From a bacterium (GTDB taxonomy: Bacteria > Armatimonadota > UBA5829), in the NCBI GenBank assembly GCA_021371935.1, contig JAJFVF010000007.1, positions 62,001 to 126,000 on the forward strand: DNA of 64,000 bases, given 5' to 3'. The first letter of the stretch is position 1, and each line of letters opens with the position of its first letter. Of this stretch, positions 7,543-62,984 are shown piece after piece. A program made the translations under genes and the position numbers. Below the pieces are notes generated by a model, which saw nothing but the letters and a program-made list of their open reading frames with translations, was not told the origin of the DNA and searched no databases.

Positions 7543-9231
7543 TTGTCCACCTCATCTACAAACACTCTCGGCAAATACCAGATCATCAGGGAGATTGCGC
7601 GCTCAAACGATATCGTCTATGAGGCGCTGGACCCGTCAATAAACAGGCACGTAGCCCTGAAGGAACTCTGCATACCGCCGAATGTCACCGGCGCGCAAAA
7701 GCGTGAACGCATAGAGCGCTTCCTGCGTGAGGGCAGGGCTGCGGGTAAACTGGCACACCCGAACATCGTCACGATCTATGATGTCGGCAAGGACAACGAC
7801 CGCTATTACATCGCGATGGAGTTTCTCACAGGTCAGACGCTGCGCGATATGCTTCAAGCGGGTGGGGCGCTGTCGATAAGTGATGCGGTGAACTATACTC
7901 TGCAGCTTTGCGATGCGCTTTCATATGCCCATGCAAACGGCGTGGTCCACCGGGATATCAAGCCGGACAATGTCCAGGTTCTTCCCGGCGGGCATATTAA
8001 GCTTACGGACTTCGGGATTGCACGCATGATGGGTGAGTCGTCGATCACTCAGGACGGCCAGGTCTTCGGCACACCGAGCTATATGTCGCCTGAACAGGTC
8101 GCGGGCAAGAAACTCGACACCCGCTCTGACATATTTTCGGTGGGTGTGATGCTCTATGAGATGATAGCGGGCAAGAAGCCATTTTCGGGCGACAGCGTGG
8201 TCACCATCACATATAACATAGTCAATATGGAGGCTCCGCCTCCTCCAGGTGCGCCGCCGTATCTGGTCGGGATTATCCGCAAGGCTATGGCAAAGGATGT
8301 CAATGCCCGGTATCAGAGCATAGACCAAATGGCTGACGACCTGCGTGAACAAAAATCGAGCGGAGCATTTCTGCCCGACCCGACTTCAGTGCCAGCTTGG
8401 CCTCCGCAGCAGGTTGGTGGCGTTACGCCTGACCCATTCGGCCAGCCGCCTTCTGTGCCTGTGACGCCGTATGGTACGCCCGTGCCGTCAACGAGCGCAG
8501 GCGCTGATCCATCGTCCATTCCCGATCCGTTTGCGCAGAACGCGCCCATGCAGGCACAGATGCCTCCGTCGGCTCCGCCTGCGCCTGTTATGAGCGCGGA
8601 GACACGCAATTTCCTGGGTGTGTTCATGCTTGTGATCGCGCTGGTGGGGATGCTTTTCTTTGCAGTGTGGGCGGTGAACTTGGCCTATAGCAGCTATCGC
8701 ACCAGCATGACGTCGGATACGGCACTCAAATACCTCAATCAAGGCGACAAGCTCTATAAGGCCGGAAACCAAAGTGGCGCGGTCCAGCAGTGGATGAATG
8801 CAGTCCGTGTGTCGCCGGACTCCGATTATGCCAAAAAAGCGCGCGAACGCATATACACAGTTGAGGTTGCTGTTGCTCGGGGATATTATGAAACGCGCAA
8901 TATCTCCTCTCTCAAAGACACTGCCAAAACGCTGATCGAGGCGAGCCCGAACCGTCCAGAAGGGTATTTTTACAGCGCTGCGGCGGGGTATTTTGAGGGC
9001 GACATGGATAGGGCGAAGTCTGACTATGCCAAGGCTATCCAATGCGGCGGCAATGATTCATATGCTCAGGCTGCCCGCACCAACCTCGGCACTATCTACA
9101 TAACCGAAGGCGACAAGTTTGCTGCGGCGGGTCAGAAAGACCAGGCTATCTCGTCATATGAGAATGCCAAGAAGTATGGCGACTCGAACATATTGCAGGC
9201 GGCTCAGGACAGAATAACACGTTTGCAGTAA
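7543..9231 (+). CDS. Transmembrane Ser/Thr protein kinase with external TPR region
   Basis: 562 aa PknB-type kinase. The catalytic Lys (VALKE, K40), HRDIKPDN (about 135-142), DFG (about 156-158) and GTPSYMSPEQ activation-segment motif are intact. The glycine-rich loop is not: where GxGxxG is expected the protein reads EIARSNDIVYEA. After the kinase domain come a Pro-rich linker (about 275-350), one membrane helix (about 356-380) and an extracytoplasmic C-terminal region with TPR-like helices. The start is TTG at 7543, six bases after the phosphatase stop. With PP2C, VWA and FHA neighbours it forms a phosphosignalling unit. Confidence 0.92.
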   Translation: MSTSSTNTLGKYQIIREIARSNDIVYEALDPSINRHVALKELCIPPNVTGAQKRERIERFLREGRAAGKLAHPNIVTIYDVGKDNDRYYIAMEFLTGQTLRDMLQAGGALSISDAVNYTLQLCDALSYAHANGVVHRDIKPDNVQVLPGGHIKLTDFGIARMMGESSITQDGQVFGTPSYMSPEQVAGKKLDTRSDIFSVGVMLYEMIAGKKPFSGDSVVTITYNIVNMEAPPPPGAPPYLVGIIRKAMAKDVNARYQSIDQMADDLREQKSSGAFLPDPTSVPAWPPQQVGGVTPDPFGQPPSVPVTPYGTPVPSTSAGADPSSIPDPFAQNAPMQAQMPPSAPPAPVMSAETRNFLGVFMLVIALVGMLFFAVWAVNLAYSSYRTSMTSDTALKYLNQGDKLYKAGNQSGAVQQWMNAVRVSPDSDYAKKARERIYTVEVAVARGYYETRNISSLKDTAKTLIEASPNRPEGYFYSAAAGYFEGDMDRAKSDYAKAIQCGGNDSYAQAARTNLGTIYITEGDKFAAAGQKDQAISSYENAKKYGDSNILQAAQDRITRLQ

Positions 9232-9266
9232 CTGAGAGCATGACTGCTCACTATATTTGTCGTGAT

Positions 9267-9394
9267 GGGTAGGGATCTCCGAATCCCTACCCTAAAGCCA
9301 GTGCCGGATCTCCGAATCCGGCTTCTTGATGTAAGATTTTGGGGTTCGGAGACCCCATTCTGGCCATAAGGTGACGATTCAGAGATCGTCACCT
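9267..9394. repeat. Four perfect hairpins sharing one loop sequence
   Basis: Four hairpins in a row: 9267-9292 (stem GGGTAGGGAT), 9303-9322 (stem GCCGGAT), 9340-9357 (stem TGGGGT) and 9369-9394 (stem AGGTGACGAT). The stems differ completely but pair perfectly. The six-base loops are CTCCGA, CTCCGA, TCGGAG (its reverse complement) and TCAGAG (one change). Lies between the kinase gene and the next CDS; could also terminate transcription. Confidence 0.75.
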
Positions 9395-9503
9395 ATCCGT
9401 TTTTCATATTTTCCTTATTCGTATGTTTGCCCTGCAGTGACCGGGAACTTGCGGCTTTGCGCTGCGTAAAATATACTACAGCTATATTATGAGGTGAAAT
9501 CCA

Positions 9504-10868
9504 CTGCGAAAGTTAATTCCGCTTATGTTTTGTATGCTCTGTCTTTCAGCCAATTCAACCAGTGCCGATGAATTTCGCGGCGGGTGGGTCACTGCCTGGA
9601 ACAAGGGTCTGTTCACTCCATCCGAGGCCGATGCCACCATCGCAGCCGCCAAAAAAGCAGGGCTGAATACGCTGTTTGTCCAGGTCAGGAAGGTGGGGGA
9701 TGCTTATTACGACTCTTCCATCGAGCCTCGGGGTGAGAATATAGCTCCCGGTTTCGACCCGTTGGCATATATGGTCGAAAAGGGTCATGCCAACGGCATT
9801 CGCATCCACGCATGGGTCAATGTCTGCCGCGTGTGGCGGGAAAAGACTCTTCCGACAGACCCATCGCATATCGTAAATCGCCATCCGGACTGGCTCAACA
9901 AAGAGTATGACGGCAACATGCATGCAGACGATGGGATGTTTATGGACCCGGGTGTGCCCGATGCACGCGAATACACTGCCGATCTGATAGCCGATATAGC
10001 CAAACGTTACGATTTGGATGGCATCCACCTGGATTATATCAGGTATTCGGGGACCGCATGGGGATATTCAGACATCGCTCTTGCCCGGTATAAGGCTGAG
10101 AATGGCACGCAGTGCAGACCCAAACCCGATGACCCGAAATGGCTGCGCTGGAGGATGGATCAGGTGACTGAGTTGGTGAGTGTGATCCGTTCACGTGTTC
10201 ATGCCGTCAAGCCGAACCTCACAATTACCGCTGCAACCATAGCCTGGGGAGACTGCATGCCGACCTTTACGGACAATGCGGCCTGCAAGCGGACCTGTCA
10301 GAATTGGTGCAATTGGTTAAACGGCGGGCTGATAGATGCTGCCGTGCCTATGAACTATCGCAGGGAAAACAAAGCCGATATGGCCGCTCAGTTCAGGCTC
10401 TGGCTGAAGGGTTTTGCCAAATGGGGAAACGGCAGGCCGACCTATGTGGGCGTCGATTTGCACAACAACAGCACATCGAATATCCTCCGCCAGATAGCCG
10501 CGGTCAGAAAAGCCGGTCTGCAGGGCTATGTGCTGTTTTCGTTTAATGATTTTCCAGTCAGAGACGCGATAGTAGCGGCTCTGGCAAAGCAGTCGGGCGT
10601 ATCATCAAATGAAGAATGCTCCACAAGTGCCGGGTTCTTCGATAAAGGTATCCGGTGCGCTGAGGCCAATCAGTTGGGCATGGCCAAGGTCTACCTCAAA
10701 AAGTCAATCGAGATGGATCAGAATAATGCAGAGGCTCACTTCCGACTCGGGCGAGTATATCTGCGCGAGAAAAACTACACTATGGCTAAACAGGAGTTTG
10801 ATACCACTCTCACGCTCGACCCGTCGCACGAGGGCGCAAAAGTCGAACTCGAATCTATAGCACTTTAA
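9504..10868 (+). CDS. Exported GHL10-family glycoside-hydrolase-like protein with TPR tail
   Basis: Glycosyl hydrolase-like 10 (DUF187) family. Begins after the signal region with FRGGWVTAWNKG and shows the family core: NTLFVQVRKVGDAYY, HAWVNVCRVW, DLDGIHLDYIRYSG, and AAVPMNY-like. The C-terminal ~70 residues form one to two TPR repeats (AEAHFRLGRVYLREKNY). The only ATG near the front (9525) has no ribosome site; a CTG at 9504 lies 8 bases after AGGTG and would give a proper signal peptide starting LRKLIPLMF, so I choose CTG, with ATG 9525 as the alternative. Substrate unknown; GHL10 enzymes are predicted to act on polysaccharides or peptidoglycan-like glycans outside the cell. Confidence 0.85.
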   Translation: MRKLIPLMFCMLCLSANSTSADEFRGGWVTAWNKGLFTPSEADATIAAAKKAGLNTLFVQVRKVGDAYYDSSIEPRGENIAPGFDPLAYMVEKGHANGIRIHAWVNVCRVWREKTLPTDPSHIVNRHPDWLNKEYDGNMHADDGMFMDPGVPDAREYTADLIADIAKRYDLDGIHLDYIRYSGTAWGYSDIALARYKAENGTQCRPKPDDPKWLRWRMDQVTELVSVIRSRVHAVKPNLTITAATIAWGDCMPTFTDNAACKRTCQNWCNWLNGGLIDAAVPMNYRRENKADMAAQFRLWLKGFAKWGNGRPTYVGVDLHNNSTSNILRQIAAVRKAGLQGYVLFSFNDFPVRDAIVAALAKQSGVSSNEECSTSAGFFDKGIRCAEANQLGMAKVYLKKSIEMDQNNAEAHFRLGRVYLREKNYTMAKQEFDTTLTLDPSHEGAKVELESIAL

Positions 10869-18066: not shown

Positions 18067-18140
18067 TGGTTCCGGGGCCTGGAGTCGAACCAAGACTCAC
18101 GGCTCCAAAGGCCGTTGTTCTGCCATTGAACTACCCCGGA
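18067..18140 (-). tRNA. tRNA-Gln(TTG), CCA encoded
   Basis: On the minus strand the acceptor TCCGGGG pairs with CCCCGGA, followed by discriminator A and CCA. The D arm is GTTC..GAAC, the anticodon stem ACGGC/GCCGT closes loop CTTTGGA (anticodon TTG), and the T arm has TTCGACTCC. 74 bases including CCA. All stems pair. Confidence 0.95.
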
Positions 18141-18232: not shown

Positions 18233-18437
18233 TGGGGGCTTTGCCCCCAATCTTCCAACCAAGGGCGCTGCCCTTGGATCCCGCCAGGAGCCAAGTGGCC
18301 CCTGGACCCCCATAGCGAAGTTGGATACCCCCTGCAGGGGGTATCCAACTTCGGGTCAGAAGGTCAAGGAAACCGGGTTTCCTTGCAGAGTCCAGAGACA
18401 GAGTCTCTGGTCAGGAGTTTGAGGGTGAAACCCTCAA
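18233..18437. repeat. Array of seven consecutive hairpins
   Basis: Seven back-to-back inverted repeats in 205 bases: 18233-18249 (TGGGGGC/GCCCCCA), 18259-18277 (CCAAGGGC/GCCCTTGG), 18284-18305, 18316-18353 (a perfect 38-base palindrome centred on CTGCAG), 18365-18385 (CAAGGAAACC/GGTTTCCTTG), 18392-18410 (CCAGAGAC/GTCTCTGG) and 18419-18437 (TTGAGGGT/ACCCTCAA). No coding signal. Lies between tRNA-Gln and the nusA promoter. Confidence 0.8.
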
Positions 18438-18475
18438 TACAAATTCTGTAGATTTGACATACACTCGTATTGGTC

Positions 18476-18504
18476 TTGCAAAAGGCAGTGGCGTCTGATA
18501 TACT
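18476..18504 (+). promoter_or_regulatory. Promoter of the nusA cluster
   Basis: TTGCAA at 18476-18481 and TATACT at 18499-18504 with a 17-base spacer, followed by a 90-base leader to nusA. Confidence 0.65.
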
Positions 18505-18529
18505 GTATTAGAACTGGTTGGCGACGTTG

Positions 18530-18556
18530 TAAGAGTGGGAGTTTCGCCCACTCTTT
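18530..18556 (+). promoter_or_regulatory. Leader hairpin ahead of nusA
   Basis: AAGAGTGGG pairs with CCCACTCTT and is followed by TTT; a terminator-like stem in the transcript leader, about 36 bases before the nusA start. It could act as an attenuator, which would fit autoregulation by NusA (inference). Confidence 0.55.
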
Positions 18557-27908: not shown

Positions 27909-27980
27909 TAATCAACATAAAGTCAAAACGAACTGAGCGTGAAATCAGAATTTTTGAGCGTGGGCAGTTCGTTTTTACGC

Positions 27981-28041
27981 ATTATTCACAAGGAGTGTGA
28001 ATAATGCTCTCAGAGCTCATATTATGCGTTTCCCGCATAAT
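27981..28041. repeat. Double-hairpin repeat, copy 1
   Basis: Two hairpins, ATTATTCACA..TGTGAATAAT (27981-28005) and ATTATGCG..CGCATAAT (28021-28041). The same pair occurs in opposite orientation at 62923-62984, so it is a dispersed element. Confidence 0.6.
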
Positions 28042-28160
28042 ACGGGGTAGCGGTTTTATTTATATCTACAATTCCTTCCTCTCGCGAAAGTGCGAAAAGA
28101 CGAAAGCACGAAAAAATTGGTCATCAGCAAAGATATCCTCTCATAATTATAAGACAACAA

Positions 28161-57605: not shown

Positions 57606-57691
57606 TGTCATTCCCAGCTTGACTGGGAATCCAGTAACTTGCATTACGACTAACGCTAGGAGTCTGGGTTCCCGCTTTCGCGGGAATGACA
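57606..57691. repeat. 86-bp palindromic mini-element
   Basis: Ends TGTCATTCCC and GGGAATGACA are inverted repeats. Inside are hairpins ATTCCCAG/CTGGGAAT and TTCCCGC/GCGGGAA. Resembles the widespread ATTCCCGC..GCGGGAAT repeat family. Confidence 0.6.
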
Positions 57692-62881: not shown

Positions 62882-62922
62882 GACATATGCTGGTGGTTAC
62901 AGGAAAATATCTTTTAGCCTGT

Positions 62923-62984
62923 ATTATGCGCTTCCCGCATAATACAGGGCTCCGATAGCATTATTCACGCTTCTCGTGAATATT
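62923..62984. repeat. Double-hairpin repeat, copy 2
   Basis: ATTATGCG..CGCATAAT (62923-62943) and ATTATTCACG..CGTGAATATT (62960-62984). Inverted copy of 27981-28041. Confidence 0.6.

Follow-up and report, generated by a model that had tools for sequence, protein, structure and literature searches.

A REPIN-like double-hairpin repeat with a conserved loop and its candidate RAYT partner in an Armatimonadota genome

Four perfect hairpins are clustered at positions 9267-9394 of the 64,000-nt stretch of DNA analysed here (the window), and the question raised by this locus is what keeps a loop constant while the stems around it change. An earlier note, made from the sequence alone, described the four stems as unrelated and the loop CTCCGA (or its reverse complement) as common to all, and proposed either selection on an RNA or cruciform loop or a mechanism that copies only the loop. 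The stems are indeed perfect, yet they are not fully unrelated, given the two long ones are variants of one sequence and three of the four hairpins have the loop-closing triplet GAT/ATC. Likewise, three of the four loops are identical, and the fourth, CTCTGA, is one letter off.

In what follows, G000 denotes the genome carrying the window (the own genome, 3.54 Mb) and G004 its sister genome; C-numbers are contigs and L-numbers are examined stretches. The repeat family with the CTCCGA-type loop, to which the element at 9264-9397 belongs, is referred to as family A.

The element and its repeat family

The unit common to the loci consists of a GAT tag, a 10-bp hairpin, a CCA-containing linker of approximately 10 nt, and a short hairpin whose loop is of the same type. 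The parts of the window copy are presented in Table 1. As single-stranded DNA, the 134-nt segment has a predicted folding energy of -37 kcal/mol (z -8.6), and in the predicted fold the two CCA-bearing linkers pair together, enclosing both short hairpins.

Table 1. Features of the window element and of a related element (window coordinates; strand +, - or. for none; "rows" are those of the 50-row alignment)
Feature	Position	Strand	Evidence
Complete REPIN-like element: two double-hairpin units as an inverted dimer with GAT...ATC ends	9264..9397 (134 bp)	.	same ends in 13 G004 dimers, flanks mostly unrelated; fold
GAT tag, foot of hairpin 1, unit 1	9264..9266	+	column counts in 50 rows: G 41, A 37, T 50
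Hairpin 1, unit 1: 10-bp stem, loop CTCCGA; GGGTAGGGAT-ctccga-ATCCCTACCC	9267..9292	+	perfect hairpin; covariation
Linker TAAAGCCAGT with conserved CCA	9293..9302	+	50 rows: C 45, C 43, A 41; pairs with other linker in predicted fold
Hairpin 2, unit 1: 7-bp stem, loop CTCCGA; GCCGGAT-ctccga-ATCCGGC	9303..9322	+	perfect hairpin; covariation
Spacer separating the two inverted units	9323..9339	.	
Hairpin 2, unit 2: 6-bp stem, minus-strand loop CTCCGA; TGGGGT-tcggag-ACCCCA	9340..9357	-	hairpin cluster search
Hairpin 1, unit 2: 10-bp stem, minus-strand loop CTCTGA; AGGTGACGAT-tcagag-ATCGTCACCT	9369..9394	-	
GAT tag, unit 2 (plus strand: ATC)	9395..9397	-	common dimer ends
3' extension	9398..9437	+	also beside four G004 dimers; 172-176 nt matches reaching 9434-9437
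Related double-hairpin element, loops ATCYG / TTGAA	2437..2529	.	hairpin 1 2437-2465, hairpin 2 2475-2491, inverted hairpin 1 2501-2529

The sequence GGATCTCCGAATCC occurs 10 times in the own genome, including three pairs spaced 33 bases apart, and its reversed control does not occur. A covariance model (R2) built from 11 own-genome units, which match it by construction, gave 26 matches in the own genome at E <= 0.1, of which 18 are full-span at E < 1e-5. Single units were found as well as dimers. Of 16 unit loci examined, 13 do not overlap an open reading frame of at least 120 aa and three do. Family A therefore has the many intergenic palindromic copies that define a REP, though its copy number is low for one. 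Among 41 related genomes, the family is present at E <= 1e-4 in nine (own included), all of the same order, with 2 to 52 matches per genome. A known Rfam RNA was rejected as an identity for the repeat, given an Rfam search of the window returned a tRNA as its sole match.

Other hairpins were observed in the window. Those near 2441-2529, which the earlier note had described as having the same build with other loops, are real (Table 1). A cluster of perfect hairpins at 18259-18555, one with a 17-bp stem, lies close to a tRNA-Gln (18067-18140), and part of it has an 88% match in a G004 stretch (L168). The intergenic segment 2568-2645, directly before an FHA-domain gene, is rich in inverted and direct repeats of TATGAGTTGTG / CACAACTCATAA. 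A second double-hairpin family, apparently more abundant, has the form GCATTATTCACG-5 nt-CGTGAATAATGC plus CCGGATTATGCG-5 nt-CGCATAATCCGG and is found at window positions 27979-28042 and 62918-62982 and in L041, L045, L047, L049, L053 and L119; its stem is conserved and its loop varies, the reverse of family A, and no RAYT of its own was seen. Finally, paired ATTCCCGC-loop-GCGGGAAT / ATTCCCAG-loop-CTGGGAAT hairpins resembling CGTC-type REPs are present at L043:8926-9002, L044:2419-2496, L051:2854-2931 and L052:14456-14534, with a similar one at window 57610-57630.

Stem variation and differing positions of the dimer

In the 11 own-genome units, 96.7% of the pair cells are standard, and 28 cells have both bases changed, versus 10.1 in shuffled and 0-5 in slid controls. 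In an alignment of 42 units from eight genomes, made without structure, 95.1% of the cells are paired and 98 are double-change cells, versus 32.1 in shuffled and 1-26 in slid controls. Ten of 52 matches were excluded to obtain these 42 rows: two were duplicate views, and the other eight, which include both G001 matches, were truncated or weak.

Over 50 rows, the conserved positions are the GAT tag, the loop YTCCGA, the closing GAT/ATC, the linker CCA, and hairpin-1 stem columns 9-11, which lie outside the closing triplet and reach 1.4-1.9 bits. The hairpin-1 loop columns average approximately 1.6 bits, and the variable stem columns 8 and 12-14 have 0.8-1.2 bits; in hairpin 2, the variable stem columns are 44-46. 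As read from these alignments, the stems change in pairs yet are not wholly unrelated. A fixed loop with stems that change by compensation supports the proposal that selection acts on the loop when the strand is folded. As for the RNA or cruciform loop that was proposed, no finding favours RNA over single-stranded DNA as the selected molecule.

When 13 inverted dimers of G004 were aligned with the window, the common block was found to extend from GAT to ATC between mostly unrelated flanks, and in a subset of these dimers the similarity to the window copy continues 3' of this block for as many as 40 bases. The repeated entity in the window and in the 13 dimers is two inverted units, as in a REPIN or BIME. 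A mechanism copying only the loop is not supported, since the whole dimer of about 134 bp recurs with sharp ends and the stems diverge by paired substitutions.

The positions occupied in the two genomes differ. In G004, the interval from the orthologous kinase gene (89% identical in protein sequence) to the next gene aligns with the window site on both flanks, contains other hairpins, and has no family-A unit. Conversely, a G004 C26 unit is located inside an insertion of approximately 140 nt where the G000 C10 site is empty, and the G000 interval corresponding to a further G004 dimer, split over two contig ends, is without a dimer. Two sites are common to both genomes: G000 C4:62302 / G004 C15:31780, and G000 C13:107583 / G004 C39:114771. 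Judged by filled and empty sites and not by a caught event, this suggests family-A elements have moved. Two further differences were observed at such sites. At L146:3620-3860 (G004:C3), two direct copies of CGTTTATCATTGAC enclose a family-A dimer and approximately 65 nt more, and the matching G000 region has one copy of this sequence. At L143:2970-3700 (G004:C15), approximately 730 nt absent from G000 lie beside a shared family-A unit and read, by impression, like a minus-strand methyltransferase-type gene.

RAYT genes and their flanking loops

Three Y1-type genes, diverged from each other, were found in the own genome. Against the NCBIfam model NF047646 (REP-associated tyrosine transposase), they score 108.3, 104.3 and 84.7 bits, the cut-off being 80. 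The C19 gene (C19:139699-140238, 179 aa) has an intact reading frame and is bracketed by family-A units, one upstream (C19:139620-139688) and, in inverted orientation, one downstream (C19:140245-140313). The C19 locus is hence a RAYT flanked by its own repeat family, the arrangement of a REPtron, and provides the REP-type transposase the earlier note had suggested searching for. The C3 gene (L041:8850-9700) is flanked by double hairpins with loop ATTCYT, other copies of which, in the stretches examined, are mostly GAT-footed, and together they form a sister system with another loop. The C7 gene (L044:8200-8800) has copies of GGCTCGGCGGGAGC...TCGCCCTCCCA-like palindromes on either side. A similar palindrome was also observed at L058, approximately 1920-1990, where G004 has a family-A element.

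A search of 291 genomes of the phylum yielded 11 genes of the C19 clade (C19 included) in seven genomes, and no clade RAYT outside the class; within the class, relatives of the C19 protein have 38-47% identity to it. When genome contigs were scanned with the C19 RAYT, a single relative was found, located on a 5.4-kb contig from a Marinifilum MAG (L087). This contig may be a contaminant, given no RAYT relative was found at E <= 1e-50 in seven other genomes of the MAG's order. Across all 12 clade proteins (11 from the phylum and the one from the Marinifilum MAG), the HxH, Trp and Y.H.NP residues do not vary, and the nearest solved chain by sequence is that of TnpArep 4ER8 (E 4.8e-10). Judged by the family model for the three own-genome proteins, and by the HuH motif and the catalytic Tyr with its NP signature for the 12 clade proteins, these are RAYT/TnpAREP proteins, predicted to cleave a single strand at the repeat. 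A plain IS200/IS605 element was considered and rejected: the three Y1 genes are diverged, the motif is Y---NP and not Y---Q, and the IS200 model scores well under its cut-off.

The clade genes are flanked by inverted hairpin units whose loops differ by gene: CTCYGA at L114, TTCCGA at L119, ATCYG at L128 (G004), ATTCYT at L129, TCCC/TCT at L120, TGC/TGT at L117 and L126, TGY/TCT at L115 and L118, TCT/TCC at L116, RTRT/ATTT at L127, and ATAT/GTGT at the Marinifilum-labelled L087. The loop at L128 is the same as in the window element at 2437-2529, so the two clusters of the window look like two families of one kind.

For 11 genes, the edit distance between left and right hairpin-1 loops is 0.55, versus 2.7 when permuted (0 of 20000), an agreement that would be inflated if the sequences to the left and right of a gene are homologous to each other. 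Between hairpin 1 and hairpin 2 of a unit, it is 1.05 versus 2.54 when permuted (1 of 20000, 10 genes), and the two loops are not identical for L115, L116, L117, L120, L126 and L127. The loops were read by eye; L118 was left out for being a near copy of L115, L119 was entered without a second hairpin, and the L129 hairpins are less regular on the left than on the right. Only two genes have a YTCCGA loop, and they are sisters in the RAYT protein tree (support 90/89), though they come from separate families within the class. The same genomes also encode more distantly related RAYTs, whose palindromes are different and longer.

The change of loop from gene to gene within one protein clade, while stems drift, points to the loop as the specificity determinant.

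Interpretation and comparison with known systems

We consider it probable, at roughly three chances in four, that the four hairpins make up a single copy of a REPIN-like, non-autonomous mobile element, which is read and moved by a loop-recognising RAYT. Genome comparison shows the family itself, its compensatory stems, its fixed loop and ends, its differing positions in the sister genome, and its place on either side of a RAYT gene in the own genome. The RAYT, a HuH/Y1 single-strand endonuclease, would bind the folded single strand and recognise the 5' GAT tag together with the loop and the GAT/ATC pairs that close it. Much of the stem would need only to pair, so that stems could drift in pairs. 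The enzyme would then cut near the GAT ends and insert the element elsewhere, and sister RAYTs would read other loops. Such loop readout has a precedent in the group 3 RAYTs, which, as described in PMC8266576, depend on particular bases of the loop and are largely tolerant of changes in the stem.

An unlikely alternative is that the copies are orphan relics of an old REP family whose RAYT is now mostly lost, in which case the loop would be conserved by common ancestry and not by present recognition. This would agree with the eight other family-A genomes (of nine), in which no RAYT flanked by this loop was seen; the copies there may be relics or orphaned, or may be moved by another enzyme, by an unassembled gene or in trans. 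Several G004 contigs among C33, C37, C50, C59, C60 and C26 begin or end inside or beside family-A units, and copy number and cognate RAYTs in that genome may therefore be under-counted. However, the stems of the same copies diverged, often by two changes per pair, and the loop sites, where a single change would do, did not. Moreover, the many near-identical G004 dimers suggest recent spread, and the own genome has an intact RAYT reading frame between two units.

It is quite improbable that the hairpins are instead intrinsic terminators, or stabilise the mRNA 3' end of the upstream kinase transcript, with a common loop that is coincidental or serves RNA stability. The element is intergenic and lies just downstream of the plus-strand kinase gene ending at 9231, 9150-9600 contains three terminator-like matches versus 0.3 expected, the same slot in G004 is filled with other hairpins, and REPs elsewhere are thought to have such roles, according to PMC3733652. 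Nevertheless, copies of the repeat are found in both orientations at sites unrelated to each other, with fixed ends that lack a T run, its units are on both sides of a RAYT, and the CTCCGA loop, GAT tag and CCA linker are not needed by a terminator. A chance cluster can be dismissed: although short perfect hairpins with 6-nt loops are common (a mean of 50 per simulated window), the search for clusters (stem of 5 or more, 6-nt loops that differ from one another by at most one mismatch, within 110 nt) gave a largest cluster of 4 in the window, versus 1 in 291 and 2 in nine of 300 first-order Markov simulations and never more, and the recurrence of GGATCTCCGAATCC versus its reversed control agrees with this, so that random expectation, which the earlier note had named as what would refute its reading, does not account for the four hairpins.

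Returning to the mobile repeat read by a loop-recognising RAYT, a more general version of it is offered tentatively, at odds somewhat short of even. Each clade RAYT would recognise a private loop on the two tandem hairpins of its unit, with stem sequence largely irrelevant beyond pairing, and loops would switch as RAYTs diverge, so that several RAYT/repeat pairs could coexist in one genome without cross-talk. If true, the same build beside the Marinifilum-labelled RAYT would indicate a general type, perhaps that of the unexplained "atypical" structures of RAYT group 5. RAYT repeat choice has been tested biochemically for very few proteins, with three REPtron models in which both GTAG tag and hairpin are involved, as reported in PMC8266576; several natural RAYT/loop pairs are available here for a direct swap test.

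In comparison with known systems, family A and its RAYT are a REPIN-RAYT system in which the GTAG tag is absent, each unit has two hairpins and conservation is centred on the loop. Inverted REP pairs moved by RAYTs are termed REPINs (PMC3116915). Like the REPINs and BIMEs of Pseudomonas and enterobacteria, family A consists of small intergenic palindromic repeats with an inverted dimer as the mobile unit, and shares with them, as described in PMC3116915, a repeat-flanked RAYT gene and compensatory changes in the variable part. It differs in having two hairpins per half, a conserved core formed by the loop with its closing GAT/ATC, and GAT in place of GTAG/GTGG: the 5' GT[AG]G tag of canonical REPs is absent, the hairpin-1 foot being GAT in most of the 50 rows. 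Its copies are also fewer, with 2 to 52 matches per genome versus the more than 100 given as usual for REPs in PMC2817692. A search of open-licence literature returned no match for a conserved loop with variable stem in REPs, nor for this architecture, which is not proof of absence.

Two other systems share particular features. The group 3 (2.5) RAYT/REP systems of Stenotrophomonas and Marinomonas, as described in PMC8266576, are alike in short perfect palindromes, critical loop bases and a tolerant stem, and differ in the GTAG tag, one hairpin per REP and, in S. maltophilia, a 3-nt loop. The CGTC-tagged REPs of PMC3733652 are alike in few major loop types and CCA-like tails, and differ in tag and stem start; no dedicated transposase for them is reported in that paper.

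Subclass 2.6 of TnpAY1, which is RAYT group 5 of Bertels, is flanked by "atypical secondary structures" without the GT[AG]G tag, according to PMC6006769. Compared with its description there, the present proteins are 174-180 long for most rows versus 179, their Y motif is Y[IML]H.NP versus YIH[QN]NP, their HuH-to-Y gap is 68-79 versus a median of 82, both groups are without the GT[AG]G tag, and the 2.6 motifs NHIH and YIHNNP are present in the Marinifilum-labelled L087. The present clade, however, is mostly outside Bacteroidetes, and its hairpins are perfect and strong, whereas PMC6006769 calls the 2.6 structures weaker. An architecture definable as a tag and two hairpins with one loop type would escape searches based on GTAG.
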